DNA from: Kineococcus xinjiangensis | GTDB taxonomy: Bacteria > Actinomycetota > Actinomycetes > Actinomycetales > Kineococcaceae | Assembly (NCBI RefSeq): GCF_002934625.1 | Contig: NZ_PTJD01000001.1 | Coordinates: 571,041-635,040 of the forward strand | DNA length: 64,000 nt | Direction of reading: 5' to 3' | Notes under the pieces: model-generated | Told to the model about the DNA's origin: nothing | What the model saw: the letters and a program-made list of their open reading frames with translations, nothing else | Database searches by the model: none | Made by a program: the position numbers and the translations under genes | In this document: positions 30,587 to 58,606 of the stretch, one piece after another | How positions within the stretch are numbered: the first letter of the stretch is position 1 | How the letters are laid out: the number at the start of each line of letters is the position of its first letter

Positions 30587-31216
30587 TCAGGAGCCGCGGC
30601 GGATCCACTCGTGCAGGTGGGGTGCCTCGTCGCCGATGGTGGTGGAGTCGCCGTGGCCGGTGAGGACGCGGGTGTCGGGGGGCAGGGCGAGCAGCTTGTC
30701 CCGGATGGAGTCGATGATGGTGGGGAAGTCGCTGTAGGAGCGGCCGGTGGCGCCGGGGCCGCCGTTGAAGAGGGTGTCGCCGGTGAAGACGGTGGCGAGG
30801 TCGGGGGCGTAGAGGCAGACGGAGCCGGGGGTGTGCCCGGGGGTGTGCAGGACGTGCAGTTCCGTGCCGGCCACCTCGAGGCGCTGCCCGTCGGACAGGT
30901 CGGACGTCGCGGCGCCGTCCTGGTGCGTCATGCGCCACAGCTCGGCATCGGCCGGGTGCAGGAGCACCGGCGCCTGCACGCGCGCCGCCAGCGCGGGGGC
31001 GTGGCGGATGTGGTCGTCGTGGGCGTGGGTGGCGACGATGGCTCGCACGTCCCGGCCGGCGACCGCCTCGGTGATGGCGTCGGGGTCGTGGGGGGCGTCG
31101 ATGACGATGCACTCGCGGTCGTCGCCGACGATCCAGACGTTGTTGTCCACCTCGAAGGTCTGCCCGTCCAGGCTGAACGTGCCCGAGGTGGTCAGGTGCT
31201 CGACCCGCGCGCTCAC
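30587..31216 (-). CDS. Metallo-beta-lactamase-fold hydrolase, MscR partner (glyoxalase II-like)
   Basis: 209 residues. Zinc motif THAHDDH (HxHxDH) at about residues 63-69, later ligands in HTPGHTPGS and GDTLF, and final His in TGHGDSTT. Family known to be encoded with the mycothiol-dependent formaldehyde dehydrogenase in actinobacteria, as here with a 4-bp overlap (31213-31216). It probably hydrolyses the S-formyl-mycothiol thioester made by that enzyme, releasing formate and mycothiol; the reaction is inferred from context. It is the last gene of the reductase-P450-MscR operon. Confidence 0.88.
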
Positions 31217-34803: not shown

Positions 34804-37401
34804 TCAGCTGATCGTGATGGGCGTGGTCAGCGGGGTGTCCGTGGCCGAGGTGCCGATGGAGGCGAGGACCCGGCCCTTGGGCGTGACCCACTTCTTGGTG
34901 GCGGTGTCCCAGAACTGCAGGGACCGGCGCGGGACCTGGACGGTCACGGTCCGGCTCTCACCGGCGGCGAGGTCGAGGCTGACGAAACCGGCGAGCGCCT
35001 TCGTCGGGGTCTCGACGATGGTGGGCAGGGCGCCGACGTAGACCTGCGCGACGGTGGTGCCGGCCCGGTTGGAGGTGTTCCGCACGGTGAACGTCACGGG
35101 CACGCTCTGGGCCGTGCCGGTGCTGCTGATCGTGCCGCCCTGGGCCCCCGAGTACGCGAAGCTCGCGTAGGACAGGCCGTGGCCGAAGGGGAACAACGGA
35201 GTCTGGCCGTTCTTGTGGAAGAGACGGTAGCCGGTGTGGATGCCCTCCGCGTAGGTGGTCGTGCCCCCGGTGCCCGGGTAGGAGGCGGCACCCTGCGCGA
35301 CGACGCCCTGGCCGGGGCCGGTGGGGAAGGTGACGGGGAGCCGGCCGCCCGCGTCGGCGTCGCCGAAGAGGACGTTGGCCGGGCCGGTGCCCACGGCGGC
35401 ACCCGGGTACCAGACCTGCAGGACGCCCTCGACCTGCGACAGCCACGGCATGGTGACGCCGCCGGGGGTGTTCAGGACGACGACGGTGTTCGGGTTGGCC
35501 GCCGCGACGGCGGAGATGAGCTCGTTCTGGTCGCCGGGCAGGGCGAAGGACGTGTCGCGGTCCATCCCCTCGCCGCTGGCCTGGTTGGCGTAGACGACCG
35601 CCGCGTCGGCCCCCCGCGCGGCCGCGACCGCGTCGGCGATGAGGGACTTCGGCTGCCAGCCGAGGTGCAGCTCCGGGGGCAGGAAGCCGTTGCCCTGGGT
35701 GGTGTAGCTGACCTCGATGTCGGCGGGCTGGCCGGCGGTGAGCTGCACCTTCCCCTGGAGGGGGTAGTTCACCGGGCTCATGCCGAGGAAGTTGGTGAAC
35801 TCCCGCTGCCCGGCGATGACGGTCTGGCCGTTGACCTTCACCGTCACCCCGCCACCCACGAGGGCCGAGAGGCGGACGAGACCCGAGTGCGTCGGGATGA
35901 TCTTGCCGGTGAAGCGCGCCGACCAGGTGGCGGGCAGCCCCTGGGTGAGGGGCTCGCCGCCGTGGAACTGGTGGTCGAGGGTCGCCACGTTCGCCGTCTT
36001 GACCGGGGTTCCGGAGAAGGTGCCGTTGCCGTAGAAGGTTGCGCGGAGACCGGCGCTGCCGTCGGGGGCCCGCAGGGCGCTGCTGGGGACCACGGGGAGC
36101 GCCACGTCGCCGAGGGAACCCTGGGCGGCGGTCACGGTCGCTCCGCTGCCGGCCTCGGCCCGGATCGCGGCCAGCGGGCTGGTCACGGTGCCGGGGATGA
36201 CGTAGGAGGAGCCGCCCACGCCGGTCATCGCGTCGGCACCGGCGGGGCCGATCACCGCGATGCGCTGGGAGACGTTCTTCCGCAGCGGCAGGACGCCGGA
36301 GTTCTTCAGCAGGACGGAGCTCTTCTCCGCGACCCGGTTGGCGACGGCCCTGTTCGTGGCCGTGCTGACGTGGTCGTCGTTCTCCGCCGGTGCGGGGTTG
36401 TCGAAGACACCGCTGTTGAAGATGGCGAAGGCGACGCGCTTGGCCGCCTCCTCGAGCCGGGTGGCGGAGATGGCGCCGTTGGTGAAGGCGTCGCGCGGGA
36501 AGTAGGGCCACAGGATGGTGGAGTCGACACCGGCGTTGAAGCCCTTGACGTTGTCGGTGCCGGCCATGAAGTCGGGGATGATCGCTCCCCTGAAACCGGT
36601 GGCTGCGCGCAGCTCGTCCATCAGCGCCTTGTTCTCGCAGGCGAAGACGCCGTTGACCTGCGGGTAGGAGCACATCGCCGCATCCGCACGGCCCTTGGTC
36701 ACCAGCTCCTCGAACGGGGCGTTGTACACCTCCTTCAGGGCGCGCTCGGAGACGTTGATGTTGCCGTAGTTGCGGTTGGTCTCCTGGGTGTAGGCCCCGA
36801 AGTGCTTGGCGGCGACGAGGACGTCGTTGCTGCGCATGCCCCGGGACACCCCGGCGCCGATCCGGCCGCTGAGCAGCGGGTCCTCGCTCAGCGACTCCGT
36901 CTGGCGGCCGGACAGCCCGCTGCGGATGACGTCGACCGTGGGGGCCAGCATGAGGGTCTTGCCCTGCGCACGGGCCTCCTCGGCGGCCACGTCGCCGTAG
37001 CGCTGCGCCAGCTCCACGTCGAACGTGGCCGCCAGCGCCTCCGGAACGGGGAGGGCGGTGGCGCCCCCCGACTCGTTGCGGACGCCGCTGGAGGTGTCCG
37101 CGGCGATGATGTTCGGCACCCCGAACGCCGAGAGGGAGGCGTAGTCCCCCGTCACCAGTGCCACGCGCTGCGCCTGGGTGAGAGCAGCCACCAGGTCGTT
37201 CGCGCGCTGCACCGAGGAACGGGTGCGGTCCCGCCACGGCTGCGTTGTGGTGGTCGTGGTGCTCCGCCAGTCCGCCCGCTGGCCGGAGGAGTAGGAGCCG
37301 TCGCCCGACGGCTGCGGGGCAGCCGCGGCGGTGGGCAGGACGACGGGGGACATGACCAGAGCCGAGGCGGCGGTGGCCACGGCCAGGCGTCTGCGGATCA
37401 T
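34804..37401 (-). CDS. Secreted beta-glucosidase-type GH3 glycoside hydrolase with PA14 domain
   Basis: 865 residues. Sec signal (RRRLAVATAASALVMSPVVLPTAAAA). GH3 N-domain with LMLAPTVDVIRSGLSGRQTESLSEDP, KHFGAYTQETNR and nucleophile region AIIPDFMAGTD (PDF in place of the common SDW; the Asp is kept). A PA14 insertion (about 440-590: GLRATFYGNGTFSGTPV) precedes the C-domain (AVVYANQASGEGMDRDTSFALPGDQ), and a C-terminal fibronectin-like domain follows. PA14 in GH3 usually shapes specificity toward oligosaccharides or aryl glycosides. Secreted, so it acts on extracellular glycosides. ATG follows GAGAGGAAGC. An IclR regulator gene is upstream, convergent in direction only by spacing. Confidence 0.9.
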   Translation of the reverse strand: MIRRRLAVATAASALVMSPVVLPTAAAAPQPSGDGSYSSGQRADWRSTTTTTTQPWRDRTRSSVQRANDLVAALTQAQRVALVTGDYASLSAFGVPNIIAADTSSGVRNESGGATALPVPEALAATFDVELAQRYGDVAAEEARAQGKTLMLAPTVDVIRSGLSGRQTESLSEDPLLSGRIGAGVSRGMRSNDVLVAAKHFGAYTQETNRNYGNINVSERALKEVYNAPFEELVTKGRADAAMCSYPQVNGVFACENKALMDELRAATGFRGAIIPDFMAGTDNVKGFNAGVDSTILWPYFPRDAFTNGAISATRLEEAAKRVAFAIFNSGVFDNPAPAENDDHVSTATNRAVANRVAEKSSVLLKNSGVLPLRKNVSQRIAVIGPAGADAMTGVGGSSYVIPGTVTSPLAAIRAEAGSGATVTAAQGSLGDVALPVVPSSALRAPDGSAGLRATFYGNGTFSGTPVKTANVATLDHQFHGGEPLTQGLPATWSARFTGKIIPTHSGLVRLSALVGGGVTVKVNGQTVIAGQREFTNFLGMSPVNYPLQGKVQLTAGQPADIEVSYTTQGNGFLPPELHLGWQPKSLIADAVAAARGADAAVVYANQASGEGMDRDTSFALPGDQNELISAVAAANPNTVVVLNTPGGVTMPWLSQVEGVLQVWYPGAAVGTGPANVLFGDADAGGRLPVTFPTGPGQGVVAQGAASYPGTGGTTTYAEGIHTGYRLFHKNGQTPLFPFGHGLSYASFAYSGAQGGTISSTGTAQSVPVTFTVRNTSNRAGTTVAQVYVGALPTIVETPTKALAGFVSLDLAAGESRTVTVQVPRRSLQFWDTATKKWVTPKGRVLASIGTSATDTPLTTPITIS

Positions 37402-37732
37402 GCGCTTCCTCTCGGTGGCAGGAGGCATCGCCGGGCATCGACTGGAGAGGGCGCTGCGGCCGGTGCCGGGGTCTGTCCGGCTGGTCCGCAACGCGTTCCG
37501 GGTCACGAGCGCCTCGAGGGACGGCCCTGCCGGGCCGTGCGGATCCGCCCACCACGACTGCGTGGTGGGCCCGGTGCGGCAACGCATCCGGGGTTCGGTC
37601 CGTGGTCCGGTGGCAGGACTCCCGGCGCTCGTCGCTCGGTGAGGCACCGCTCGGGGTGCCGCTCCTGGGAGTGCTCGAAGCGTGCCACCGGCGCGGTCGG
37701 CACCGGAAGCACCGATCACCTGATGCGAGGCA
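37402..37732. other. Intergenic region (331 bp) upstream of the GH3-PA14 gene
   Basis: No gene supported. Contains a hairpin (37547-37570) suited to end the IclR transcript and the promoter region of the minus-strand GH3 gene. Near its right edge the 8-mer ATCACCTG is repeated (37715, 37732) around GATGC-GAG-GCATC, a possible regulator site. Confidence 0.5.
37547..37570 (-). terminator. Hairpin downstream of the IclR gene
   Basis: Perfect 10-bp arms (37547-37556, 37561-37570) with loop ACTG, located 160 bp after the IclR stop and before GH3. Confidence 0.5.
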
Positions 37733-38575
37733 TCACCTGTGCTGATGGGCCGGTCGCACCGGGCTGCGGCCGCCGGCCTCACCGGCGCCGAGGCGCCGGG
37801 TGACGCCCCGGGAGGCCGCGTGCAGGGCCGGCACGACGGACTTCGCGCCCGCGTCGTTGGGGACGATGGCGGAGAGAGCGGCGATCACGCGCCCCGTGGC
37901 GTCGCGGATGGGAACCGCCACCCCGGTGGCCTCCGGGTGCACGAGGCCGGCGCACAGCGCGAACCCCTGACCGCGCACGCGGGCCAGTTCCGCCCGCAGG
38001 CGCACGGGGTCGGTCACGGAGGCGGCGGTCGTCGCGGTCAGGGGCCGGGACAGGACCCGCTCGAGCAGGTCCGTCGGGCCGTGCGCGAGCAGCACCCATC
38101 CCGACGAGGCCAGGTGCAGCGGCAGCCGGCCCGCGATGCGGGTGAGGCTGACGACCGCCGCGGGCGCGCTGAGTCGTTCGAGGAAGAGCGCCTCGTCGCC
38201 GTCCAGGACGCTGAGCTGCACGTGGTGGCCGACCGCGTCGTGGAGGTCCTCCAGCGACGGCATGGCGGCCTCGCGCAGGCTGAGCGCCGGCGAGGCGCGC
38301 ATCGCCAGCTCCCACAGCCGCACGCCGGTCCGCACGCGCCGGTCGGTGCCGCGGGTGAGGAGCCCGTGGGCGACCAGCTCGGCGACCAGGCGTGAGGTGG
38401 TGGCGACGTGCAGCCCGGAGCGGCGGGCGATCTCGGTGACGGTGAGGGACGTGTCACCCGCCTCGAAGGCCTCGAGGATGCGCACGACGCGCGAGACGAG
38501 GGACTCCCCCGTCCGCTCCTGCCCGGCGCCCGGGGACGGGGGCTGCGGCCCGCCCGGCAGGGGCTGCGCGCTCAT
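37733..38575 (-). CDS. IclR-family transcriptional regulator
   Basis: 280 residues. N-terminal winged HTH (SLVSRVVRILEAFEAGDTSLTVTEIARRSGLHVATTSRLVAELVAHGLL) and C-terminal IclR effector domain (ALSLREAAMPSLEDLHDAVGHHVQLSVLDGDEALFLERLSAPAA; GVAVPIRDATGRVIAALSAIVPN). Effectors for this family are usually aromatic acids or small organic acids. It overlaps the preceding decayed SDR gene by four bases (ATGA), so both belong to one transcript. Likely controls the GH3/demethylase genes or the neighbouring aromatic operon; not shown. Confidence 0.88.
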   Translation of the reverse strand: MSAQPLPGGPQPPSPGAGQERTGESLVSRVVRILEAFEAGDTSLTVTEIARRSGLHVATTSRLVAELVAHGLLTRGTDRRVRTGVRLWELAMRASPALSLREAAMPSLEDLHDAVGHHVQLSVLDGDEALFLERLSAPAAVVSLTRIAGRLPLHLASSGWVLLAHGPTDLLERVLSRPLTATTAASVTDPVRLRAELARVRGQGFALCAGLVHPEATGVAVPIRDATGRVIAALSAIVPNDAGAKSVVPALHAASRGVTRRLGAGEAGGRSPVRPAHQHR

Positions 38576-39142: not shown

Positions 39143-40117
39143 ATGGAGCACATCAGCCGCGTCGATGCGGCCCGCCCTGCGGATTCGCGGCGGCGGGAGC
39201 GGACGGTGCACCTCGCGAACCTCGACCTCAACCTGCTCGTCGCGCTGGACGCCCTGCTGCAGCGGCGCAGCGTCACGAAAGCCGCCGCCCAGATGGGCCT
39301 CAGCCAGCCGGCGCTGTCCGCGTCGCTGGCCCGGCTGCGGCGCCACTTCGACGACCCGCTGCTGACCAGGGTGGGCAACGAGTACCACCTGACGCCGCTG
39401 GCGCAGCAACTGAGAGAGCGGACCCGGGTGGTGCTGGCGGGCGTGGAGCGCGTGTTCGCCGCCGAGCCCGACTTCGACCCCGCCTCCTCCACCCGGGAGG
39501 CGACGCTCGTCACCAGCGACTACAGCGAGAGCGTCCTCGGTCCGGCCCTGAGTTCGCTGCTGGCGCAGGAGGCACCGGGGATGCGCCTGCGCCTGCTCGC
39601 GAACACCCCTCAGCTCGTGGACAACGCCGAGCGCGTCCTGACCGGGGTCGACCTGCTCCTGCTGCCCCACGGGTTCCTCACGGACCTCCCGCACGAGGAC
39701 CTGCACCGCGACCGCTGGATGTGCATCGTCTCCGCCGACAACCCCGCAGTGGGTGGGGAACTGACGCCGGAGCACCTGCGCACGATGCCGTGGGTGGTGA
39801 CGTACCACGGGCCGACCGCCTCGACCCCGGCCGCACGGCAGATGCGGATGCTCGGCATCGAACCGCGCGTGCAGGTCGTCACCGAGCACTTCCTCGCCGT
39901 GCCGGGACTCGTGGCGGGCAGCGGGCGCATCGCCCTGCTGCAGGAACTGCTCGTGCGCCGTCTGCCGGCCGACTCCGGGGTCCGGGCGCTCCCCTGCCCC
40001 GTCGAGCTCGGGCCGCTCATCGAGGCGATGTGGTGGCACCCGGCCTATTCCGCGGACCCGGAGCACGAGTACCTGCGCGGACTGGTGCTGCGCGCGGCCC
40101 GGTCGCTGCGCGCCTGA
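39143..40117 (+). CDS. LysR-family transcriptional regulator (NodD/aromatic-type)
   Basis: 324 residues. N-terminal HTH LNLLVALDALLQRRSVTKAAAQMGLSQPALSASLARLRRHFDDPLLTR, and a periplasmic-binding-like effector domain. The LDLNLLVALDALL start and DDPLLTRVGNEYHLTPLA are typical of the NodD/LinR/NahR group that senses aromatic or flavonoid molecules. It diverges from the decayed SDR (49 bp apart) and lies upstream of, and co-oriented with, the MFS and ring-cleavage genes, so it is a strong candidate activator. ATG at 39143 chosen by alignment with the family start. Confidence 0.88.
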   Translation: MEHISRVDAARPADSRRRERTVHLANLDLNLLVALDALLQRRSVTKAAAQMGLSQPALSASLARLRRHFDDPLLTRVGNEYHLTPLAQQLRERTRVVLAGVERVFAAEPDFDPASSTREATLVTSDYSESVLGPALSSLLAQEAPGMRLRLLANTPQLVDNAERVLTGVDLLLLPHGFLTDLPHEDLHRDRWMCIVSADNPAVGGELTPEHLRTMPWVVTYHGPTASTPAARQMRMLGIEPRVQVVTEHFLAVPGLVAGSGRIALLQELLVRRLPADSGVRALPCPVELGPLIEAMWWHPAYSADPEHEYLRGLVLRAARSLRA

Positions 40118-40233
40118 GGGGTCGCATCGGCGGCGTGGATGCCGTCCATCACGAGGAGTTGTTGGCCGTTCGGGGGCGGGGTCGGGAAACTCCGGAAACC
40201 GGCCCGCGACGGTGCGGGCCCGAAGGAGGTCCC

Positions 40234-41442
40234 GTGTCCGGAACCCTGTCCCCCGATTCCACCAGCGCCTCGTCGGCCTCGCCGGCGTCCCGGCGAGAAC
40301 CGGGAACCCCGCAGGGGCTGCTCCTCGTCGGCCTCAGCTGCCTGGCCGTGCTCGGGGCGGTGCTGATCGCGCCCATCCAGCCCAGCATCGCCCGGCACTT
40401 CGCGGACACCCCCGGCGTCGGCGCCCTGGTTCCGATCTCGCTCACCGTGCCTGCCCTGGCCATCGCGCTCCTGGCGCCGGTCGCGGGCCGCATCATCGAC
40501 CGCACCGGGCGCATCCGGCTCCTGGTGGCGTCCCTGGTGGCCTACGCCGTCTTCGGGACGGCGCCCCTGTGGCTGGACTCCCTGGAGTCGATCGTCGCCA
40601 GCCGCGCCCTCGTGGGCGTCGCCGAGGCGGGGATCATGACCTGCGCCACGGCCCTGGTCGGTGACTACTTCACCGGCCGCCGCCGCAACCGGTACTTCGG
40701 CCTGCAGACCGTGGCTGCGTCCGTCTCCGCCGTGATCTTCATCGGGGCCGGCGGTGCGCTCGGGGCCCAGGACTGGCGAACCCCGTTCTGGCTGTACGCG
40801 GTCGGCCTGCTCGGGGCGGTCCTCGTGCCGTTCGTGCTCCGCGAGCCCGCGGCCGCACCGGCCGGCAAGCTGCCGCCCCTGGACCTGGAGCGGCTGCGCC
40901 TGCCGCTGGCCGTGACGTTCGTCGGCGGCATCGTCTTCTACACGCCGATCGTCGAGCTCTCCTTCGCGCTGGACGCCCTCGGCGTGGAGTCCGTCGCGGT
41001 CATCGGCGGCGTCAGCGCCCTGGCAGCGGTCGCGACGGCCGTGGGTGCCGCCTCGTTCGCCCCGATGGCCCGGCGCGGTCCGGCGGTGCTGCTGCCGGTG
41101 GCGTTCGGCCTCGCCGGCGTCGGCCTCGTCGTCGTCGCGCTCGCCCCGAGCGTGCCGGTGCTGCTGGCCGGCGGGATCATCGCCTCGGCGGGCACGGGCC
41201 TGATGCTGCCCACGCTGCTGTCGTGGACGCTGTCCGACGTGTCCCACGACCAGCGCGGCCGGGCCACCGGCATCTGGACGGGCTGCCTCTTCATCGGGGA
41301 GTTCATCTGCCCGCTGGCCGTCCTCGCCATGTCCGCGGTCCTCGGCGGGCTCTCCGCGGCCCTGGTCGCCATCGCCGTCCTCTCCCTGGCCCTGGCCGTC
41401 TTCGTGCGGCTGCGCCACCCGCGCCCCGTCCTGACGCACTGA
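40234..41442 (+). CDS. MFS transporter (drug:H+ antiporter/aromatic-type)
   Basis: 402 residues, about 12 membrane helices. Conserved loop between TM2 and TM3 as GRIIDRTGRIRLLVASL, and GDYFTGRRRNRYFGLQ after TM4. Starts at a GTG preceded by AAGGAGGT. It could import the aromatic substrate of the next operon or export a toxic intermediate; direction is not evident from sequence. Lies 116 bp after the LysR gene and 174 bp before the dioxygenase. Confidence 0.82.
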   Translation: MSGTLSPDSTSASSASPASRREPGTPQGLLLVGLSCLAVLGAVLIAPIQPSIARHFADTPGVGALVPISLTVPALAIALLAPVAGRIIDRTGRIRLLVASLVAYAVFGTAPLWLDSLESIVASRALVGVAEAGIMTCATALVGDYFTGRRRNRYFGLQTVAASVSAVIFIGAGGALGAQDWRTPFWLYAVGLLGAVLVPFVLREPAAAPAGKLPPLDLERLRLPLAVTFVGGIVFYTPIVELSFALDALGVESVAVIGGVSALAAVATAVGAASFAPMARRGPAVLLPVAFGLAGVGLVVVALAPSVPVLLAGGIIASAGTGLMLPTLLSWTLSDVSHDQRGRATGIWTGCLFIGEFICPLAVLAMSAVLGGLSAALVAIAVLSLALAVFVRLRHPRPVLTH

Positions 41443-41480
41443 GGGGAGGCCCTGCGGCATCAGCAACATCGATGCGTCTC

Positions 41481-41504
41481 ATCGGGAAGTCGCTGTTCCC
41501 TGAT
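41481..41504. promoter_or_regulatory. Candidate operator upstream of the ring-cleavage operon
   Basis: An interrupted inverted repeat ATC-GGGAA-(7 nt)-TTCCC-t-GAT, flanked more widely by ATCAGC and GCTGAT. It lies 112-136 bp before the dioxygenase start. The regulator could be the LysR or IclR protein. Confidence 0.4.
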
Positions 41505-41616: not shown

Positions 41617-42657
41617 ATGATCAAGCTGCTGGCCCACCTCGCCCACCTGGAGATCTCCTCCCCGGACGTCGCGGCCACCGCCGCCTTCCTCGAGCGCGGC
41701 TTCGGCCTGCGCCAGGTCGAGCGCGACGACGACGGCTCGGTCTACCTGCGCTGCTGGGGCGACTACCACCCCTACAGCGTCATCGTCTCCCCCGGCGAGC
41801 AGCCCGCCCTGGTGAACATGGCGTGGCGGACCTCCAGCGAGGAGGCCCTCGACGAGGCCGCCCGTCGCGTGCAGGCCAAGGGCGTGAGCGGCACCTGGTT
41901 CGACAAGCGCCAGGGCCACGGCCGCTCCTTCCAGTTCACCGGCCCCTACGGGCACACCATGGAGCTGTACTGGGACGTCCCGCAGCACCAGGCGCCGGCC
42001 GAGCTGCGGTCGGTCTTCCCCGACCGCCCGGAGAAGCGCTCCTCGCACGCCGCGGCTCCCCGCTTCCTCGACCACGTCACCGTCGCCAGTGCCGACGTCA
42101 GGGGCTTCGCGGCCTGGTACAGCGAGGTCCTGGGCTTCCGCACCATGGCGTTCACCGAGCTGGACCACGCGGACATCACCGTCTTCAGCGTGCTGACCAC
42201 CAACGAGAAGTCCCACGACCTCGGCGTCGTCCTCGACTCCTCCACCCTGGGCGGGCGCGTCAACCACATCGCGTTCTGGACCGACTCCCACCAGGAGCTG
42301 CTGGTCGCGGCCGACGTCCTCATGGAGAACGGCGCGCACATCGAGTACGGCCCCTCCATCCACGGCATCGGCGAGCAGACCTTCCTGTACTTCCGCGAGC
42401 CGGGCGGGCTGCGCATCGAGCTCAACACCGGTGGGTACCGCAACTACGTGCCCGACTGGCAGCCCCACACCTGGAAGCCCTCGCTCGGCTCGAACAGCAT
42501 CTACCGCAACTCCGCGATGCCCATGTCGATGACGGAGTGCTTCCCGCCGGACCCCGGCAAGCCGTCCGCCACCGAGGAGGGCGTGCTCCCCGGCACCGAG
42601 GAGGCCCTGCTGCAGGCCGCCATCGCCAACCCCTACGCGCAGCACGGCCAGGGCTGA
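41617..42657 (+). CDS. Catechol 2,3-dioxygenase-like extradiol dioxygenase (VOC)
   Basis: 346 residues, two VOC domains. The C-terminal domain keeps the metal triad: His153 (FLDHVTVAS), His217 (VNHIAFWTD), Glu268 (LRIELNTGG), with the type I dioxygenase signature region LRIELNTGGYRNYVPDWQP. Expected to cleave a catecholic ring next to a hydroxyl using Fe(II) and O2. Substrate unknown. First gene of five closely spaced plus-strand genes; the next starts nine bases after its stop. ATG follows GAGAGG. Confidence 0.9.
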   Translation: MIKLLAHLAHLEISSPDVAATAAFLERGFGLRQVERDDDGSVYLRCWGDYHPYSVIVSPGEQPALVNMAWRTSSEEALDEAARRVQAKGVSGTWFDKRQGHGRSFQFTGPYGHTMELYWDVPQHQAPAELRSVFPDRPEKRSSHAAAPRFLDHVTVASADVRGFAAWYSEVLGFRTMAFTELDHADITVFSVLTTNEKSHDLGVVLDSSTLGGRVNHIAFWTDSHQELLVAADVLMENGAHIEYGPSIHGIGEQTFLYFREPGGLRIELNTGGYRNYVPDWQPHTWKPSLGSNSIYRNSAMPMSMTECFPPDPGKPSATEEGVLPGTEEALLQAAIANPYAQHGQG

Positions 42658-42665
42658 GGAGCGTC

Positions 42666-43838
42666 GTGTTCCAGTACTTCCCGGGCAACTACGTCTGGAA
42701 CCTCTCCGTCAACCTCGCGATGGAGATGGGCGCCAGGGTCGGCGAGGTCGACGCCATCTGCCGGCCCCTGCTGGAGGCGGCGCAGCGCGGCGAGGACGCC
42801 GGCACGGAGGACTTCATGGCCTCCTGGGAGCGCCACGGCGACCGGCTGGTGGAGCTCGCGGCGGACGACGAGGCGGTGGGCCGGTGCCTGAGCGCCGGCG
42901 AGAAGCTGGGCCGGGCGGCGACGTACTTCCTCACCGGTGAGCGGATGCAGGCCGCCGACCACGCCCCCCGGCGCGCCCTCTACGCCAAGTTCCTGCACAC
43001 GTTCCGCCGCGGCGTGGAGCTGGCCGGCGAGGACTGCGAGCGGGTGGAGGTGCCCTACGGGGGCGCGCACCTCGCGGGGCTGCTCACCCACGCCCGCAAC
43101 CCCGACGGGAGCCGGGCCGAGGGCCCTGCGCCGCTGCTGGTGATGGTCAACGGCCTGGACTCCACCAAGGAGATGCTCTACCGCACGGGCCCCGGGGCCA
43201 AGCTCGCCGCACGCGGGGTGGCGAGCCTCTGCCTGGACCAGCCGGGCACCGGCGAGGCGCTGCGCCTGCACGACCTGCACGCGGTCGTGGAGGCCGAGCA
43301 GTGGGCGAGCGCCGTCTACGAGGCGCTGGCCGCCCGCGACGACGTCGACGCCGGCCGCATCGGCATGCTCGGGGTCTCGCTCGGCGGCTACTACGCCCCG
43401 CGCGCGGTGGCGTTCGAGCCGCGCTTCGCCCTCGGGGTGGCGTGGGGCGCCAACCACGACTGGGGCGCGGTGCAGCGGGCCCGCCGCGCCGCCCAGGGCG
43501 AGCGTCCGGTCCCCCACTACTGGGACCACGTCCAGTGGGTGTGGGGGACGAAGGACCTCGACGACTTCTTCGCGCTGGCGGACCGGGTCACCCTCGACGG
43601 GGTCCTGGACCGCATCACCGTGCCGTTCCTCGTCACCCACGGGGCGCAGGACCGGCAGATCCCCCTGCAGTACGCCCACCGCACCTACGAGCAGCTCGTC
43701 AACAGCCCGGAGCGTGAGCTGAAGGTCTTCACGGAGCGGGAGGGCGGCGTGCAGCACTCCAGCGTCGACAACGGCTCGGTGGCCACGGACTTCATCGCCG
43801 ACTGGGTGGCCGAGCGCCTCGGGGGGCGGACGTCGTGA
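42666..43838 (+). CDS. Alpha/beta-hydrolase, C-C bond-type (2,6-dihydropseudooxynicotine hydrolase-like)
   Basis: 390 residues. Helical N-terminal cap (about 1-125), then hydrolase core: oxyanion region VMVNGLDSTKEM, nucleophile elbow GVSLGG (Ser238), Asp in THGAQDRQIP and His in GGVQHSSVDN. Build and motifs recall 2,6-dihydropseudooxynicotine hydrolase and FrsA-type enzymes, which cut C-C bonds next to a carbonyl. In this operon it may act on the ring-cleavage product or on a beta-diketone side chain; inferred. GTG start after GAGGAG; stop overlaps the cyclase start by four bases. Confidence 0.85.
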   Translation: MFQYFPGNYVWNLSVNLAMEMGARVGEVDAICRPLLEAAQRGEDAGTEDFMASWERHGDRLVELAADDEAVGRCLSAGEKLGRAATYFLTGERMQAADHAPRRALYAKFLHTFRRGVELAGEDCERVEVPYGGAHLAGLLTHARNPDGSRAEGPAPLLVMVNGLDSTKEMLYRTGPGAKLAARGVASLCLDQPGTGEALRLHDLHAVVEAEQWASAVYEALAARDDVDAGRIGMLGVSLGGYYAPRAVAFEPRFALGVAWGANHDWGAVQRARRAAQGERPVPHYWDHVQWVWGTKDLDDFFALADRVTLDGVLDRITVPFLVTHGAQDRQIPLQYAHRTYEQLVNSPERELKVFTEREGGVQHSSVDNGSVATDFIADWVAERLGGRTS

Positions 43839-44845
43839 CCACCCGGGACGCCGCGGGGGGCGTCCCCGCGCCCGACCGCACCGACCCCGAGGGGGCCATC
43901 GCCGCCGCCGCCGCGCGCTGCTCGAACTGGGGCCGCTGGGGCCCCGACGACGTGCACGGCACCCTGAACTTCCTCACCGACGACCTCCGCCGCGACGCGG
44001 CCCGGCTGGTGCGGCGCGGCGCGGCGTTCTCCCTGTCGCAGCCGTTCGACATGGCCGGCCCGCAGCGGGGCTGGCGGCGGCGGACCAACCCGGTGCACAC
44101 CATGCTCGACACGGGCACCGACGCCGAGCGTGGCCAGGGCTTCCCCCACGGCCTGGGCGGCGCCGACGACGTGATCGCGATGCCGCTGCAGTGCTCCACG
44201 CAGTGGGACGGCCTCGGGCACATCTTCGACCACGGCCGCGCCTGGAACGGGCGGCGGGCGGGCGACGTGGTGACGTCCCAGGGGGACGCGGTCACCGGCA
44301 TCGAGACGGCGGCCGAGCGCATCGTCGGCCGGGGAGTGCTCCTCGACGTGGGCCGCCGCTTCGGGCGGGACGTGGCAAGCTCGGGTGGTGAGCTGCCCGA
44401 CGGGTTCGCCGTCACGCAGGAGCACCTGGAGGCGACGATCGCCGCCCAGGGGCCCACGTCCGCCGTGGGCCGCGGTGACCTCGTGCTCGTCCGCACGGGG
44501 CAGTACGCCCGGGCCCGCCGCGACGGCTGGGGCGACTACGCCGGCGGCCCGGCTCCCGGGCTGTCGTTCACGACCGCCGACTGGCTGCACGGCACGGAGA
44601 TCGCGGCGATCGCCACGGACACGTGGGGGTTCGAGGTCCGCCCCAACGAGTTCGACGACGCCTTCCAGCCGCTGCACCAGGTCGTCATCCCGCACATCGG
44701 CCTGTTCGTCGGGGAGATGTGGGACCTCGACGCCCTCGCCGCGGACTGCGCCGCCGACGGTGTCCACGAGTTCCTGCTCGTGGCGGCCCCGCTGCGCGTG
44801 ACCGGGGCCGTCGGCGCCCCCCTCAACCCCATCGCCCTCAAGTGA
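43835..44845 (+). CDS. Cyclase-family metal-dependent hydrolase (kynurenine formamidase fold)
   Basis: 336 residues. Starts CSNWGRWGPDDVHGTLNFLTDD, with the metal site CSTQWDGLGHIFDHG in place of the common HxGTHxDxPxH, a variant found in one subgroup of this family. Later conserved parts are DTWGFEVRPNEF and VVIPHIGLFVGEMWDLDALA. It probably hydrolyses a lactone or enol/amide intermediate; the substrate is unknown. It overlaps the preceding hydrolase by 4 bp and is followed by the FAD monooxygenase 26 bp later. Confidence 0.85.
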   Translation: MTTRDAAGGVPAPDRTDPEGAIAAAAARCSNWGRWGPDDVHGTLNFLTDDLRRDAARLVRRGAAFSLSQPFDMAGPQRGWRRRTNPVHTMLDTGTDAERGQGFPHGLGGADDVIAMPLQCSTQWDGLGHIFDHGRAWNGRRAGDVVTSQGDAVTGIETAAERIVGRGVLLDVGRRFGRDVASSGGELPDGFAVTQEHLEATIAAQGPTSAVGRGDLVLVRTGQYARARRDGWGDYAGGPAPGLSFTTADWLHGTEIAAIATDTWGFEVRPNEFDDAFQPLHQVVIPHIGLFVGEMWDLDALAADCAADGVHEFLLVAAPLRVTGAVGAPLNPIALK

Positions 44846-44871
44846 CCCGTCCTCCCGGAGGTGTGGCGACG

Positions 44872-46023
44872 ATGCCCGCAGTCCGCAACGTTCTCGTCCT
44901 CGGCGGTGGCGCCGCCGGTGCCGCCACCGCGATCCTGCTCGCCAGGGCGGGGGTGTCCGTCGAGCTGGCCGAGGCGCGCCCCGCCCCTCCGGAGGTCGGC
45001 TCCGGCATCACCCTCCAGGGGAACGCGCTGCGCATCCTGCGCGACCTCGGCGTGTGGCCGCAGGTGGAGGCCGCCGGATACTCCTTCGACTCCCTCGGCA
45101 TCCGCCTGCCCGACCCCGTCGGGACCCTCGTCGCCGAGCTGCCCGACGTGCGCTCCGGCGGCCCCGACCTGCCCGCCACGGTCGGGATGCACCGCCCCGT
45201 GCTGACCCGCATCCTCCTCGACCGGGCGGCGGAGGTGGGGGTGCGCCTGCGGTTCGGCACCACCGCCGTGGCGCTGCGGCAGGGCGGGGAGGTCGACGGC
45301 GAGGGCGTGGAGGTGGACTTCGCCGACGGTCCCACCGGCCGCTACGACCTCGTCGTGGGCGCGGACGGCATCCGCTCCTGGACCCGCCGCGCGATCGGCA
45401 TCGACGTCGAGCCGCGCGCGACCGGCATGGGCATCTGGCGGGTCTACGCACCCCGCCCGGCCGAGATCACCCGCACCGACCTGGTCTACGGCGGTCCCTG
45501 CTACATCGCCGGCTACTGCCCCACGAGCGAGGACAGCCTCTACGCCTACCTCGTCGAGGACGCCCAGGACCGGTTCGTCATGTCGCAGGCCGAGAAGATC
45601 GCCACCTTCCGGCAGCTGGCGGCCGCCTACCACGGCCCCTGGGACGCCCTCAGGGAGGGGATCAGCGACGACACCCACATCAACTACACGTGGTTCGAGA
45701 CCCACGTCGTCGAAGGCCCCTGGCACCGCGGCCGCGTCGTGCTCGTCGGCGACGCCGTCCACTCCTGCCCGCCCACCATCGCGCAGGGCGCCGCGCAGGC
45801 GCTGGAGGACGCCGCGGTGCTCGCCGAGCTGCTCCTCACCGCGGACCGCCTCGACGAGGACCTGCTCGAGCGCTACAACGCCCGCCGGCAGGACCGGGCG
45901 CGGCAGGTGGTGGACGCCTCGGTGCAGATCGGGCGGTGGATGCTCGAGCACACCCCGCGCGAGGAGGCCGACGTGGCGGGGCTCATCGGCAGGATCTGCA
46001 AGCTCGTGACGGACCCCGCGTGA
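44872..46023 (+). CDS. FAD-dependent aromatic hydroxylase (PHBH family)
   Basis: 383 residues. FAD Rossmann motif VLVLGGGAAGAATAILLARAG with SVELAEA, the DG motif VGADGIRSWTRR (dual NAD(P)H/FAD), and GD motif GDAVHSCPPTIAQGAAQALEDAAVLAELL. A single-component group A flavin monooxygenase that hydroxylates a phenolic ring, making the catechol for the VOC dioxygenase at the start of the operon. The ATG at 44872 follows GGAGG by about 10 bases. It is 10 bp from the next gene. Confidence 0.9.
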   Translation: MPAVRNVLVLGGGAAGAATAILLARAGVSVELAEARPAPPEVGSGITLQGNALRILRDLGVWPQVEAAGYSFDSLGIRLPDPVGTLVAELPDVRSGGPDLPATVGMHRPVLTRILLDRAAEVGVRLRFGTTAVALRQGGEVDGEGVEVDFADGPTGRYDLVVGADGIRSWTRRAIGIDVEPRATGMGIWRVYAPRPAEITRTDLVYGGPCYIAGYCPTSEDSLYAYLVEDAQDRFVMSQAEKIATFRQLAAAYHGPWDALREGISDDTHINYTWFETHVVEGPWHRGRVVLVGDAVHSCPPTIAQGAAQALEDAAVLAELLLTADRLDEDLLERYNARRQDRARQVVDASVQIGRWMLEHTPREEADVAGLIGRICKLVTDPA

Positions 46024-46033
46024 GGGCTGCACC

Positions 46034-47032
46034 GTGAGGCTCGCCCGCGTCGAGGCGCCGGGCGGGCGGTTCAGCGGCGTCGTCGTCGGGGGTCCGGGCG
46101 AGGAGGTCGTCCACGCGCTGCCCGGCGGCACGACGGTCCTCGACCTGGCCGCCGCCGGCCTGGACGCGGCGCGGGAGGCCGCCGCCGCGGCGCGCCGCTC
46201 CTCCCCCGCGGTGCCGCTGTCCGCGGTGCGGCTGCTGCCGCCGCTGGAGCCGCCCTCGGTGCGCGACTTCGTCGCCTTCGAGGAGCACGTGGAGGGAGTG
46301 GTGCGCAGCGTCGGCGGCGGCTCGGGCGGAACCGTCCCCGACGCCTGGTACGAGGCGCCGACGTTCTACTTCGCCAACCCGCACAGCCTCATCGGGGCCC
46401 ACGACGACGTCGCGGTTCCCCCGGGGTGCACGGTGCTGGACTTCGAGCTCGAGGTCGCGGCGATCGTCGGGGCGGCGGGCACGAACCTCAGTCCCGCGCA
46501 GGCGCGCCAGCACGTCTTCGGCTACACGGTGTTCAACGACTGGTCCGCCCGCGACCTGCAGGGCAGGGAGATGCGGGTGGGGCTCGGGCCCGCCAAGGGC
46601 AAGGACTTCGCCACGACCCTGGGCCCGTGGGTGGTGACCGCCGACGAGCTGGAGGACTTCCGCGACTCCGACGGCCACCTGGCCCTGGAGCTGACCGCGG
46701 AGGTCGACGGGCGGCGGGTCGGCCACGACCTGCTCTCCAACGCGGGGTGGACGTTCGAGGAGATGGTCGCCTACGCCTCGCGCGGCACGTGGGTGCGCCC
46801 GGGTGACGTGCTCGGGTCGGGCACCTGCGGCAACGGCGGCTGCCTGGCGGAGCTGTGGGGGCGGGCCGGGGCGCAGGAGCCGCCGCCCCTGGCGCCGGGG
46901 AACCGGGTCCGTCTGCACGTGGAGGGCATCGGCGCGGTGGAGAACCTCGTCGTCGCGGGTGAACCGCTCGGGGCGGTCCCCGTCGTCCCGACGGCCCGGC
47001 GCAGGTCGCGGGCGCGGCACCGCCCCGACTGA
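46034..47032 (+). CDS. Fumarylacetoacetate hydrolase-family protein
   Basis: 332 residues. Metal-binding acids in LDFELEVAAIVG (ExE) and a later Asp in YTVFNDWSARDLQ, and family segments GPAKGKDFATTLGPWVV and GTWVRPGDVLGSGTCGNGGC. FAH-family enzymes hydrate or hydrolyse 4-oxo acids at the end of meta-cleavage or homogentisate-type pathways. Last gene of the ring-cleavage operon; two copies of a palindromic repeat follow it. GTG start at 46034. The C-terminal 14 residues are Arg-rich and disordered. Confidence 0.9.
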   Translation: MRLARVEAPGGRFSGVVVGGPGEEVVHALPGGTTVLDLAAAGLDAAREAAAAARRSSPAVPLSAVRLLPPLEPPSVRDFVAFEEHVEGVVRSVGGGSGGTVPDAWYEAPTFYFANPHSLIGAHDDVAVPPGCTVLDFELEVAAIVGAAGTNLSPAQARQHVFGYTVFNDWSARDLQGREMRVGLGPAKGKDFATTLGPWVVTADELEDFRDSDGHLALELTAEVDGRRVGHDLLSNAGWTFEEMVAYASRGTWVRPGDVLGSGTCGNGGCLAELWGRAGAQEPPPLAPGNRVRLHVEGIGAVENLVVAGEPLGAVPVVPTARRRSRARHRPD

Positions 47033-47105: not shown

Positions 47106-47121
47106 GAAACCCGGCACGCCC

Positions 47122-47934: not shown

Positions 47935-47984
47935 CGCCGGCGTCCCCCTCCCCGCGGGCGGCGTCCGCACGCGCCCCTGCGACG

Positions 47985-48087: not shown

Positions 48088-49938
48088 ATGAGCGTGGACA
48101 GCCACCCCCGCACCCCTCCCTCCCCGGTGTCCCCCTCCCCGGGGAGGGAGGAGCCCCCAGCCGGCGCGCCCTACCGCGACGCCGCCCTGCCCGTCGACGT
48201 GCGCGTCGAGGACCTGCTCTCCCGCATGACCCTGGAGGAGAAGGCGGGTCAGCTCTTCCACACGATGGTCACCATCGGCGAGGGCGGGCGGCTCGCCGGG
48301 CCGGTGCCCGCCTTCGGCATGGCCGGCACCGAGCAGATGGTGCGGGAGCAGCACCTGAGCCACTTCAACCTCGTCGGGGACGTCACCTCTGCCCGCGAGG
48401 CCGCCGAGTGGCACAACCGGCTGCAGGCGCTCGCGCTCGGCACGCGGCTGGGCATCCCCGTCACGGTCTCCTCCGACCCCCGCAACGCCTTCGCCTCCAA
48501 CCCGGGCACCGCCGCGCGGGCGGGCGCCCTGTCACAGTGGCCGGAGCCGCTCGGGCTGGCCGCCGTGCGCGACCCCGACCTCGTCCGCCGGGCCGCCGAC
48601 GCCGCCCGCCAGGAGTACCTGGCCCTCGGCATCCGCTGCGCGCTGCACCCCCAGGTCGACCTGGCCACCGAGTACCGCTGGTCCCGCATCGGGCAGACCT
48701 TCGGGGAGGACGCGAAGCTCACCGGTGAGCTCGTCGCCGCCTACATCGAGGGCTTCCAGGGCCCGCGGCTCGGCCCGGCGTCCGTGGCCACGATGACCAA
48801 GCACTTCCCCGGCGGCGGCCCGCAGAAGGACGGCGAGGACCCCCACTTCGCCTACGGGAAGGAGCAGGTCTACCCGGGCGGCAACTTCGAGCACCACCTG
48901 GAGCCGTTCATCGCGGCCATCGCGGCCGGAACCCCGCAGATCATGCCGTACTACGGGATGCCCGTCGGGACGGACCTGGAGGAGGTCGCCTTCGGCTTCA
49001 ACCGCCAGGTCCTCACCGGCCTGCTCCGCGAGCGGCTCGGCTTCGACGGCGTCGTCTGCACCGACTGGGGCCTCATCACCGACGCCGAGGTCTTCGGACA
49101 GCCGCTGCCCGCGCGCGCCTGGGGCGTGGAGCACCTCACCCCCCTGGAGCGCGTCGCCAGGGCCCTGCACGCCGGCGCCGACCAGTTCGGCGGCGAGACC
49201 CGCACCGACCTCGTGCTCGAACTCGTGCGCTCCGGCAGCGTGCCCGAACGGCGCATCGACGAGTCCGTCCGCCGGGTGCTGCGCCTCAAGTTCACCCTCG
49301 GCCTGTTCGACGATCCCTTCGTGGACGTCGAGGCCGCCGAGTCGGCCGTCGGCCGCGCCGACCTGTGCCTCGCCGGGTTCGAGGCGCAGGCGGCGTCCGT
49401 CACCGTCCTGACGAACCGCCCTGCGCACGCCGAGGACGAGCCGACGCGGCCGGTCCTCCCCCTGAACCCGGGCGTGCGCGTCTACCTGGAGGGCCTGGAC
49501 GCCGCCGTGGTGGCGCACGACGCGGTCCCCGTCGCCTCCCCCGAGGAGGCCGACGTCGCGCTGCTGCGCCTCGAGGCCCCCTACGAGCCCCGCCCGGGCG
49601 GCTTCGAGGCCCACTTCCACGCCGGCTCCCTCGAGTACTCCCCCGAGGAGCTGGAGCGGATCCTGCGCATCGCACGCACCGTGCCCACCGTCGTGGACGT
49701 CCACCTCGACCGCCCGGCCGTCCTGCCCGAGATCGCCGAGGTCGTCGCCGCCCTCGTCGCCACCTTCGGCGTCGGCGACGCCGCCCTCTGGGAGGTCCTC
49801 ACGGGCCGCGCCGCAGCCCGCGGCCGCCTCCCGTTCGACCTGCCCCGGTCCACCGCCGCCGTGGCCGCCAGCCGCAGCGACGTCCCGTTCGACACCGCAG
49901 ACCCCCTGTTCCGCTTCGGCGACGGCCTCGTCGGCTGA
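48088..49938 (+). CDS. Beta-glycosidase, GH3 family (cytoplasmic type)
   Basis: 616 residues, no signal peptide. Begins after a Pro/Ser-rich leader with VDVRVEDLLSRMTLEEKAGQLFHTM, the GH3 N-terminal signature. Nucleophile Asp in FDGVVCTDWGLITDAE. Substrate-site segments RWSRIGQTFGEDAKLTGELVAAYIEGFQG and MTKHFPGGGPQKDGEDPH. A shortened C-domain (about 440-616) is present but without PA14. Probably hydrolyses a beta-glycoside brought in by the MFS transporter encoded next. It diverges from TetR and leads an operon with MFS and GH78, suggesting rhamnose-containing glycosides as substrates. Confidence 0.9.
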   Translation: MSVDSHPRTPPSPVSPSPGREEPPAGAPYRDAALPVDVRVEDLLSRMTLEEKAGQLFHTMVTIGEGGRLAGPVPAFGMAGTEQMVREQHLSHFNLVGDVTSAREAAEWHNRLQALALGTRLGIPVTVSSDPRNAFASNPGTAARAGALSQWPEPLGLAAVRDPDLVRRAADAARQEYLALGIRCALHPQVDLATEYRWSRIGQTFGEDAKLTGELVAAYIEGFQGPRLGPASVATMTKHFPGGGPQKDGEDPHFAYGKEQVYPGGNFEHHLEPFIAAIAAGTPQIMPYYGMPVGTDLEEVAFGFNRQVLTGLLRERLGFDGVVCTDWGLITDAEVFGQPLPARAWGVEHLTPLERVARALHAGADQFGGETRTDLVLELVRSGSVPERRIDESVRRVLRLKFTLGLFDDPFVDVEAAESAVGRADLCLAGFEAQAASVTVLTNRPAHAEDEPTRPVLPLNPGVRVYLEGLDAAVVAHDAVPVASPEEADVALLRLEAPYEPRPGGFEAHFHAGSLEYSPEELERILRIARTVPTVVDVHLDRPAVLPEIAEVVAALVATFGVGDAALWEVLTGRAAARGRLPFDLPRSTAAVAASRSDVPFDTADPLFRFGDGLVG

Positions 49939-49969: not shown

Positions 49970-51295
49970 GTGAACAGCAGCGCCGCACCCTCCGCACCGG
50001 CCTCCGGGCCGGCCCCCGTGTCCCCGCGCCGGGCCTGGTACATCGCCGTCGTCGCCGGCATGGCCTCCTACCTCGACGCCGGAGCCATCGCAGGCTCCGC
50101 CACCGCCCTCGCCCTCTACAAGGAGGAGTTCGGCTTCAGCGGGGCGCAGTACTCCCAGCTCGCGGCCCTGCTCACCGCGATGATCGCGGTCGGCGCCCTC
50201 ATCGGCGGCCGCCTCGGGGACCGCTACGGACGCAAGCGCGTCTTCGGGCTGACGATGGTCCTCTTCGCCCTCGGCGCCGCACTGCTGACCTTCGCGCCCG
50301 GCGTGGCGTTCCTCTACGCGGGCGTCGCCGTGCTCGGCTTCGCCGCCGGCGCGGACCTGCCGCCGTCGTTGGCGATGGTCGCCGAGAGCGCCCCGGTCGG
50401 CAAGAAGGGGAAGATGATCGCGTTCTCGCACGTCCTCTGGATGGTGGGCGTCGTCGTCGTCATCTTCCTGCAGATCGGCGTCGGCGCGATGGGCGTGACC
50501 GGGGCCCGCATCATCTTCGGGCACCTGCTCGTCGTCTCCCTCATCGTGCTCGTGCTCCGCTTCGGGCTGCCCGAGTCCCTCGAGTGGTCGGCGGCGCGCA
50601 GCGGCGCGACGGCCGAGGTGCAGCACGACGCGATCGACTTCACCTCCCTCAAGGGCCTCTTCCGCTCCCGCTACGCCGCTCCCCTGGTCGCCACCGGCCT
50701 CTTCTACGCCCTGGCGAACATCGCGGCCAACACCAACGGCCAGTTCCAGACCGTCCTCTACACCCAGTTCGCGGGCCTCGACTTCCCGACCGCGGGCATG
50801 TACAGCCTCATCGGGCTCGTCTTCGTGTTCGTCGGGATGTTCACGCTGATGCGCCTGGTCGACACCCGCTACCGGCGGCCGGCCTTCATCGTCGGCGCGG
50901 TGCTCGCCGTGACGGCGTGGATCGTCCCCGCCGTCGGCGGCATCTCGGTGGCCACCCTGCTCACGATGAGCGTCCTCTTCGCCCTCGGCGGCGCGATCGC
51001 CGGTGAGCCGATGTACAAGGTGTGGTCGCAGGAGCTGCTGCCCACCCTGTACCGCAGCACAGCGCAGGGCATCACGATCGCCTTCGCCCGCATCGTGGCC
51101 GCCGTCGTCGCCCTGGTGACCTACCCCATCCTGGAGGTCGGCCCCAACGCCCTGTTCGGCTTCCTGGCCGTCACCACCCTCGCAGCCTGCCTCATCGGCC
51201 TGCTGTGGATCTCGCGGATGCCCAAGGCCGAGTCCGCGACCGGCCCTGCCCTCACCCCGGCTCCCAAGGCAGCACAGCCCTCGCGCGCGCTCTGA
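49970..51295 (+). CDS. MFS transporter, sugar/aromatic-acid type
   Basis: 441 residues, 12 predicted membrane helices. Signature loops GGRLGDRYGRKRVFG between TM2 and TM3, and GLPESLEWSAARSG in the central loop region; second-half motif LVDTRYRRP. Probably takes up a glycoside for the neighbouring GH3 and GH78 enzymes, both lacking signal peptides. GTG start follows CGAAGGAGAATC. It is 31 bp after GH3 and 30 bp before the rhamnosidase. Confidence 0.87.
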   Translation: MNSSAAPSAPASGPAPVSPRRAWYIAVVAGMASYLDAGAIAGSATALALYKEEFGFSGAQYSQLAALLTAMIAVGALIGGRLGDRYGRKRVFGLTMVLFALGAALLTFAPGVAFLYAGVAVLGFAAGADLPPSLAMVAESAPVGKKGKMIAFSHVLWMVGVVVVIFLQIGVGAMGVTGARIIFGHLLVVSLIVLVLRFGLPESLEWSAARSGATAEVQHDAIDFTSLKGLFRSRYAAPLVATGLFYALANIAANTNGQFQTVLYTQFAGLDFPTAGMYSLIGLVFVFVGMFTLMRLVDTRYRRPAFIVGAVLAVTAWIVPAVGGISVATLLTMSVLFALGGAIAGEPMYKVWSQELLPTLYRSTAQGITIAFARIVAAVVALVTYPILEVGPNALFGFLAVTTLAACLIGLLWISRMPKAESATGPALTPAPKAAQPSRAL

Positions 51296-57641: not shown

Positions 57642-57643
57642 GC

Positions 57644-58528: not shown

Positions 58529-58559
58529 GTGCGGTGCGGAACCTTTCGCTCCATGGTGC

Positions 58560-58590
58560 GGGGGCGCCCGCCGTCGCGGCAGGCACCCCC
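58560..58590 (-). promoter_or_regulatory. Hairpin between the sugar SBP and its permeases (attenuator-like)
   Basis: In the minus-strand transcript, 13-bp arms (58560-58572, 58578-58590) pair fully if two G-U pairs are allowed, with a 5-nt loop. On the plus strand the two positions would be mismatches, so it fits the operon's orientation. Confidence 0.6.
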
Positions 58591-58606
58591 TCTCTGTCTC
58601 AGTGCC

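Follow-up and report, generated by a model that had tools for sequence, protein, structure and literature searches.

What is broken down by the five-gene operon for aromatic ring cleavage at positions 41617-47032 of a 64,000-nucleotide stretch of the Kineococcus xinjiangensis genome (contig NZ_PTJD01000001.1, positions 571,041 to 635,040; the whole stretch is hereafter called the window)? The operon is real, conserved and catabolic, and we consider it quite probable that it encodes the steps acting on the aglycone in a flavonoid-degradation pathway of actinobacteria, similar to the fde (naringenin) pathway and serving catabolism of the flavonoid A ring. This reading builds on (i) the enzyme kinds of fde, (ii) matches to FdeR- and FdeE-type proteins, (iii) nod-box-like sites, (iv) linkage to GH78 genes, (v) a related cluster in Deinococcus, (vi) CYP199 and pca genes, and (vii) CoA-transferase and thiolase genes in relatives. 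To our knowledge, the genes by which aerobic bacteria break down flavonoids (plant pigments, as in citrus and tea) have been described for just a few clusters, all of them from Proteobacteria (fde, ifc).

The operon consists of the following genes:

41617..42657, plus strand: VOC extradiol dioxygenase (346 aa, PF00903), with a role in ring cleavage
42666..43838, plus strand: alpha/beta C-C hydrolase of the 2,6-dihydroxypseudooxynicotine (DHPON) hydrolase type (390 aa), counterpart of the fde hydrolase
43835..44845, plus strand: cyclase-family metal hydrolase with an STQWDGLGH motif (PF04199), a probable lactone or pyranone hydrolase
44872..46023, plus strand: group A FAD monooxygenase (FMO), FdeE-like (PRK06847), proposed flavonoid A-ring 8-hydroxylase
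46034..47032, plus strand: FAH-superfamily hydrolase (PF01557), proposed acylpyruvate hydrolase

These genes had been delimited and named in an original prediction made from the letters of the window; all five open reading frames proved intact and Pfam agreed with every label. The intergenic gaps (+8, -4, +26, and +10 bp) bear out the predicted spacing of at most 26 bp, the overlap being confined to one pair (hydrolase/cyclase, -4 bp), and the operon indeed holds no ferredoxin, aldolase or decarboxylase gene. The gene-neighbourhood check that the prediction had proposed returned the identical order VOC-hydrolase-cyclase-FMO-FAH in seven other genomes (L022-L028), so that the arrangement is not due to chance; in these the LysR gene (7/7) and the MFS gene (6/7) accompany the operon, and CoA-transferase subunits and a thiolase are often encoded 3' of it. 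The operon is widespread in the order, where the dioxygenase is present at E <1e-60 in 20/297 genomes. One claim was not supported, namely that the five-enzyme combination lacks precedent: Herbaspirillum and Burkholderia have the same five kinds in their fde flavonoid operon.

Two loci served for the comparison with fde, one on a Burkholderia anthina plasmid (L043) and one on a Herbaspirillum sp. ASV7 contig (L123); H. seropedicae SmR1 itself was not among the 80 loci returned, and congeners took its place. The positions FdeA-J were assigned by gene order and by the published descriptions of FdeA, FdeC, FdeD, and FdeE. In H. seropedicae FdeC is the dioxygenase, FdeD a Rieske carrier and FdeE the FAD monooxygenase, and FdeA is related to a 300-aa phenol-degradation-type protein (PMC8552027, PMC11069340, PMC11303751); for FdeE and for IfcA of the ifc cluster, flavonoid 8-hydroxylation was proven in vitro (PMC11303751, PMC11069340). 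A Herbaspirillum FdeE-type query had the operon FMO as its best and only strong match in the genome (E 2e-59; next match 4e-22). This FMO is 34-39% identical to its fde counterparts and belongs to the same NCBI subfamily PRK06847, scoring 418 bits over a cut-off of 372 (fde-type FMOs 534 and 535 bits). The hydrolases are orthologous, with 61-65% identity over the full length, and identity amounts to 36-40% for the LysR and about 31% for the FAH proteins. The hydrolase has the nucleophile motif GVSLGG, and its earlier assignment to the DHPON type agrees with its nearest solved relative, 2,6-dihydroxypseudooxynicotine hydrolase (2JBW, E 1.6e-19). The variant metal site described for the cyclase was likewise found: LQCSTQWDGLGH replaces the HxGTHxDxxxH of canonical PF04199 proteins, with glutamine at two histidine positions. 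The solved relative 5IBZ (E 5.5e-55) has STQWDxLxH in common with it, and an STQWD-type motif, with small variations, occurs in 18/18 operon cyclase homologues. The dioxygenase carries the metal-ligand-type motifs DHVTV, VNHIA, and RIELNTGG, and its best hits in the PDB are catechol dioxygenases. A second VOC homologue of the genome (contig C7, 29%) was set aside, its neighbourhood being unrelated as far as gene clustering shows.

The putative regulatory features lie 5' of the operon:

37722..37746, minus strand: nod-box-like element facing the GH3-reductase-CYP199 run, putative operator
37733..38575, minus strand: IclR-type regulator, with the GH3-CYP199 run on one side and the LysR gene on the other
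39143..40117, plus strand: NodD/FdeR-like LysR regulator (PF00126/PF03466), 5' of the operon on the same strand
40126..40150, plus strand: nod-box-like element before the MFS gene, putative operator
40234..41442, plus strand: MFS transporter (PF07690), probably for the aglycone or an aromatic acid
41459..41483, plus strand: nod-box-like element ATC-N9-GAT-N7-ATC before the operon, putative operator

The operon LysR is the only strong match of a Herbaspirillum FdeR-type query in the genome (E 1e-49, 40% identity; next match 3e-6). In most relatives a LysR gene adjoins the operon, and the MFS gene is kept beside it in 12 other loci. FdeR of H. seropedicae is called NodD-like in the title of Wassem et al. 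(2017), as cited in PMC10799723, and rhizobial nod boxes have ATC-N9-GAT as their palindrome (PMC5596368). In the promoter alignment ATC-N9-GAT-N7-ATC, followed by a TTCC element, is conserved in 8/8 family promoters amid diverged DNA. The N7-ATC spacing we take to match the nod-box consensus too. The window holds three copies where 0.05 are expected by chance, out of five in the whole 4.6 Mb genome (reversed control: 0); the copy on contig C5, which sits within pca genes (pcaH/G region), was set aside as probably fortuitous. ATC-N9-GAT half-sites recur between the LysR and MFS genes of five relatives (L022, L024, L025, L027, L028). The element at 37722 lies about 320 bp ahead of the GH3 start and overlaps the 3' end of the IclR gene; related IclR genes are also found near the operons of L022 and L026. 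Probably, the NodD/FdeR-like LysR protein switches the pathway on in response to flavonoids by acting at these nod-box-like sites, to which it would bind.

From the enzyme families we infer the following route. Outside the operon, rhamnosidases and beta-glucosidases would take the rhamnosyl-glucosyl sugar off a flavonoid glycoside, and the resulting aglycone would be hydroxylated by the FMO at C8 of the A ring to give a 7,8-catechol. The VOC dioxygenase would cleave this 7,8-diol in the extradiol manner, probably between C8 and C8a: the ifc intermediate X3 is 2-hydroxy-5-aryl-4H-pyran-4-one (PMC11069340), and since it retains C8a in the pyranone while C5-C8 are gone, C8-C8a is the likely bond cut. 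With a 5-hydroxylated flavonoid an acylpyruvate side chain would be left on C4a, from which the FAH-superfamily enzyme would free pyruvate. Acylpyruvates are the classic substrate type of FAH-superfamily hydrolases. The remaining 2-hydroxy-4-pyranone ring, chemically a lactone, would be opened by the cyclase-family hydrolase. The aryl diketo acid thus formed would be cut by the DHPON-hydrolase-type enzyme into the carboxylic acid of the B ring and a 3-oxo acid; for a flavone this would be an aryl 3,5-dioxo acid yielding a benzoate and acetoacetate, and a flavanone would give a cinnamate at this point. The CYP199 system next door could then demethylate acids from 4'-methoxylated B rings, which would feed into the pca pathway. 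A benzoate and acetoacetate as products fit both the CoA-transferase and thiolase genes of the relatives and the local CYP199 benzoate demethylase.

The original prediction stopped at the operon and missed that the functional neighbourhood spans both of its flanks, at about 30.6-60 kb. The genes for sugar removal and uptake are:

34804..37401, minus strand: GH3 glycosidase with a PA14 domain (PF00933, PF01915, PF07691), probably a secreted beta-glucosidase
48088..49938, plus strand: second GH3 beta-glycosidase (PF00933, PF01915)
50018..51295, plus strand: MFS/sugar transporter (PF07690, PF00083)
51326..53944, plus strand: GH78 alpha-L-rhamnosidase 1 (PF17389 etc.)
54048..56669, minus strand: GH78 alpha-L-rhamnosidase 2 (PF17389 etc.)
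56745..59914, minus strand: sugar ABC transporter, two permeases and a binding protein (PF00528 twice, PF01547)
60175-61191: LacI-type regulator near the GH78/ABC genes

These two GH78 genes, both within 14 kb of the operon, are the only ones in the 4.6 Mb genome. Across the 20 operon-bearing genomes, 12/48 GH78 genes lie ≤30 kb from the gene for the dioxygenase, where 0.71 would be expected (P 2e-11, with placement modelled as uniform and neither contig ends nor shared ancestry taken into account). The ABC trio and a GH78 gene also adjoin the operon in L033, L038, and L039. The TetR-GH3-MFS-GH78 block (window positions 47281-53944) recurs in L023 on the opposite side of the operon, which suggests a movable deglycosylation module. 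Between operon and block, just 3' of the FAH gene, a long GC-rich hairpin is present in two tandem copies 73 bp apart (47051-47178), and a diverged single arm of it lies 3' of the first rhamnosidase gene (53965-53991); its exact 26-mer unit was found nowhere else in the genome. The hairpins after the FAH gene are possibly terminators or a small mobile palindrome.

On the other flank, a putative module for O-demethylation is encoded next to the first GH3 gene:

33711..34679, minus strand: phthalate-dioxygenase-reductase-type electron donor of the P450 (PDB 2PIA, E 1.3e-58; also similar to P450-fused reductases)
32460..33677, minus strand: CYP199-type P450, predicted p-methoxybenzoate O-demethylase by similarity to PbdA and CYP199A
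31213..32409, minus strand: S-(hydroxymethyl)mycothiol dehydrogenase for formaldehyde oxidation (TIGR03451, 627 bits; cut-off 513)
30587..31216, minus strand: MBL-fold thioester hydrolase (PF00753), GloB-like, adjoining the formaldehyde dehydrogenase

The P450 scores 629 bits to PbdA (9G9Q) and 466-484 bits to CYP199A4/A2, and the carboxylate-binding Arg/Ser/Ser of PbdA (Arg84, Ser87, Ser237) is conserved in the alignment. PbdA O-demethylates p-methoxybenzoate, veratrate, and isovanillate (PMC11530827). In L026, L038, and L039, too, the CYP199-reductase pair accompanies the operon. For the lower pathway, the genome has an apparently complete protocatechuate operon (pcaF, H, G, B, DC, I, and J, judged by order and partial family checks). 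A p-hydroxybenzoate hydroxylase-like gene on contig C2 (71414-72586) reaches 478 bits (cut-off 539) and has one in-frame TGA in the match. The TGA could mean that the gene is broken, or it could be an artefact of frame or assembly.

Taken together, these genes would make up a complete flavonoid-glycoside regulon comprising deglycosylation, meta-cleavage of the A ring by a dioxygenase and a lactonase not orthologous to those of fde, O-demethylation of the B ring, removal of formaldehyde, and NodD-like co-regulation via the nod-box-like sites. We put this forward tentatively, at somewhat below even chances, and its natural targets would be 4'-methoxy rutinosides, for example hesperidin, diosmin or linarin; that such rutinosides are the natural substrate, and that all genes form a single NodD-like regulon, we hold to be clearly less likely than flavonoid A-ring catabolism itself, with chances about as high as for the complete regulon or a shade lower. 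The strongest competing explanation keeps the operon for flavonoid aglycones and assigns the rhamnosidases, glucosidases, and CYP199 system to unrelated pathways for pectin or lignin. GH78 genes occur ≤30 kb from the operon in just 7/20 operon-bearing genomes, CYP199 enzymes also serve lignin-derived benzoates (PMC11530827), and the GH78/ABC genes have the LacI-type regulator of their own nearby. However, the GH78 clustering is strong, in L038 and L039 the MFS gene of the operon has the CYP199-reductase pair immediately after it, and a nod-box-like element faces the GH3-CYP199 run; we rate unrelated neighbours as unlikely, at around one chance in five. The combination of GH3 and formaldehyde dehydrogenase genes beside a flavonoid-type operon likewise makes the flavonoid B ring, and not lignin, the likely source of the methoxybenzoate.

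Nearly as hard to dismiss, though slightly less likely again, is that the same chemistry is applied to some other plant polyphenol whose ring is of the phloroglucinol or catechol type, such as a xanthone, dihydrochalcone, stilbene or anthraquinone. Family membership by itself does not determine the substrate, and LysR and FMO are just ~40% identical to the fde proteins. On plasmid pDAETH-1 of Deinococcus aetherius (L041, 8948-18416) a C-glycoside deglycosidase (PF19906) and a GMC oxidase are directly followed by the ring-cleavage enzyme set, in what is apparently a cluster for degradation of C-glycosyl polyphenols. Flavonoid C-glycosides and carminic acid are among the substrates of C-glycoside deglycosidases (PMC8563793), and the linkage is an independent tie of the enzyme set to glycosylated polyphenols; natural C-glycosides, which this cluster implies as substrates, include xanthones and carminic acid. 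What favours flavonoids for the K. xinjiangensis operon is the FdeR-like regulator with its nod-box-like elements, the FdeE-subfamily hydroxylase, and the linked rhamnosidases, and the suggestion in the original prediction that flavonoids be among the screening substrates was judged sensible.

It is very improbable that the operon is a disguised version of a standard route for catechol meta-cleavage, which the original prediction had already discounted, or for homogentisate. Catechol 2,3-dioxygenase is the top NCBIfam model of the dioxygenase (TIGR03211), and homogentisate breakdown involves FAH proteins, but both routes were rejected and are largely refuted: the curated cut-offs are widely missed (TIGR03211, 238 bits vs. 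320; TIGR01266 for true fumarylacetoacetase, 80 vs. 375), the dioxygenase is of the VOC type, and the operon has no hydrolase of the 2-hydroxymuconic semialdehyde (HMS) or 2-hydroxy-6-oxo-6-phenylhexadienoate (HOPDA) type, hydratase, aldolase or homogentisate dioxygenase. Equally remote is a pathway for N-heteroaromatics such as nicotine or hydroxypyridine, for which speak the pyridine-active nearest PDB relatives of hydrolase and FMO (6-hydroxynicotinate monooxygenase is among the FMO matches) and work on 4-hydroxypyridine breakdown by Arthrobacter, which reportedly mentions a flavin monooxygenase, an extradiol dioxygenase, and an FAH-type hydrolase as well; this candidate was rejected, given that the hydrolase is far nearer to the fde-type hydrolases than to DHPON hydrolase and that the glycosidic and methoxy-aromatic neighbourhood does not fit.

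Several observations weigh against flavonoid A-ring catabolism as the function of the operon, or against an overly literal equation with fde. The VOC dioxygenase is 23% identical to that of fde and belongs to another subfamily, so it is not of the FdeC type; the cyclase, also at 23%, belongs to the STQWD subfamily and not to the canonical HxGTHxDxxxH one; and by gene list and Pfam the operon is without the Rieske protein FdeD, the cupin, and the epimerase of fde. The FMO identity of 34-39% leaves its substrate and hydroxylation position unfixed. Clusters of different content, too, contain homologues of the hydrolase (e.g., Sphingobium L045), and in ifc a knockout of the DHPON-like hydrolase left daidzein degradation unaffected (PMC11069340). 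The full nod-box-like arrangement had no exact match in the Herbaspirillum fde promoters examined, and the fde promoters of Burkholderia (L043) and Trinickia (L048) have half-sites only. The literature searched yielded no assayed enzyme from the operon or its actinobacterial relatives, nor did full-text searches, with subscription papers outside their coverage, reveal a published actinobacterial counterpart of the operon.

In other families the operon is rearranged. Eight loci (L029-L032, L034-L037) have no hydrolase and encode a PF04909 amidohydrolase and a second FAH protein instead. None of 19 loci has both the hydrolase (11 loci) and the amidohydrolase (8 loci; Fisher P 1.3e-5, uncorrected for relatedness), which suggests that one takes the other's place; the amidohydrolase superfamily includes C-C hydrolases (LigY). 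In the hydrolase tree the window clade joins Deinococcus and then Proteobacteria, and not the actinobacterial clade of L033, L038, and L039, with modest supports. A short-chain dehydrogenase remnant lies at 38572-39042 (minus strand) of the window, in which in-frame deletions have taken out the catalytic Ser-Tyr-Lys region; an intact version adjoins the operon in L022.

If confirmed as flavonoid-degrading, such a compact and easily cloned five-gene version would allow a step-by-step assignment of enzymes, including the conversion of ifc X2 to X3, and would supply new enzymes for flavonoid 8-hydroxylation and C-C hydrolysis. With it one could also test whether NodD-type flavonoid sensing with nod-box-like DNA is an old and general device of plant-polyphenol catabolism and not a rhizobial speciality; the complete regulon, if true, would show nod-box-type flavonoid sensing far outside the rhizobia and in a catabolic role.

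As to known systems, the Deinococcus cluster resembles the window in its VOC dioxygenase (66% identity) and hydrolase (68%) and in having a cyclase, an FAH protein, and a PRK06847 FMO; it differs in the C-glycoside deglycosidase and GMC oxidase at its front in place of rhamnosidases, in its canonical-type cyclase, and in its two FMOs. PbdAB of Rhodococcus jostii RHA1 shares with the window a CYP199-family P450 with an adjoining reductase gene, which in the window stand in a run with GH3 and formaldehyde dehydrogenase genes beside the flavonoid-type operon. The ifc cluster of Variovorax sp. V35 has in common with the window an A-ring 8-hydroxylating FMO (IfcA), a VOC dioxygenase, and a DHPON-like hydrolase gene; it acts on the pyranone intermediate with the cupins IfcD1/D2, and IfcB is FdeC-like (65.8%), unlike the window VOC protein.

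The fde-type operon of L043 and L123 comprises about 10 genes beside a divergent LysR gene, encoding an FdeA-like protein, hydrolase, VOC dioxygenase, Rieske protein, FMO, MFS transporter, cyclase, cupin, FAH protein, and epimerase. A short fde-type hydrolase-VOC-FMO run was also observed on a Roseomonas mucosa plasmid (L047, 10001-13393), among human-associated Roseomonas plasmids. Both the fde and the window clusters have the LysR regulator, FMO, C-C hydrolase, VOC dioxygenase, PF04199 cyclase, FAH protein, and MFS transporter; the window operon has no FdeA-type gene, a different gene order, an actinobacterial host (Actinomycetota), and linked GH78/GH3 and CYP199 genes. With two parts from other subfamilies (VOC and cyclase) and three missing (FdeD, cupin, and epimerase), strict membership in fde is ruled out. 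On its sequence, the K. xinjiangensis operon is best read as a recast fde-like pathway, which would work in the manner of fde.

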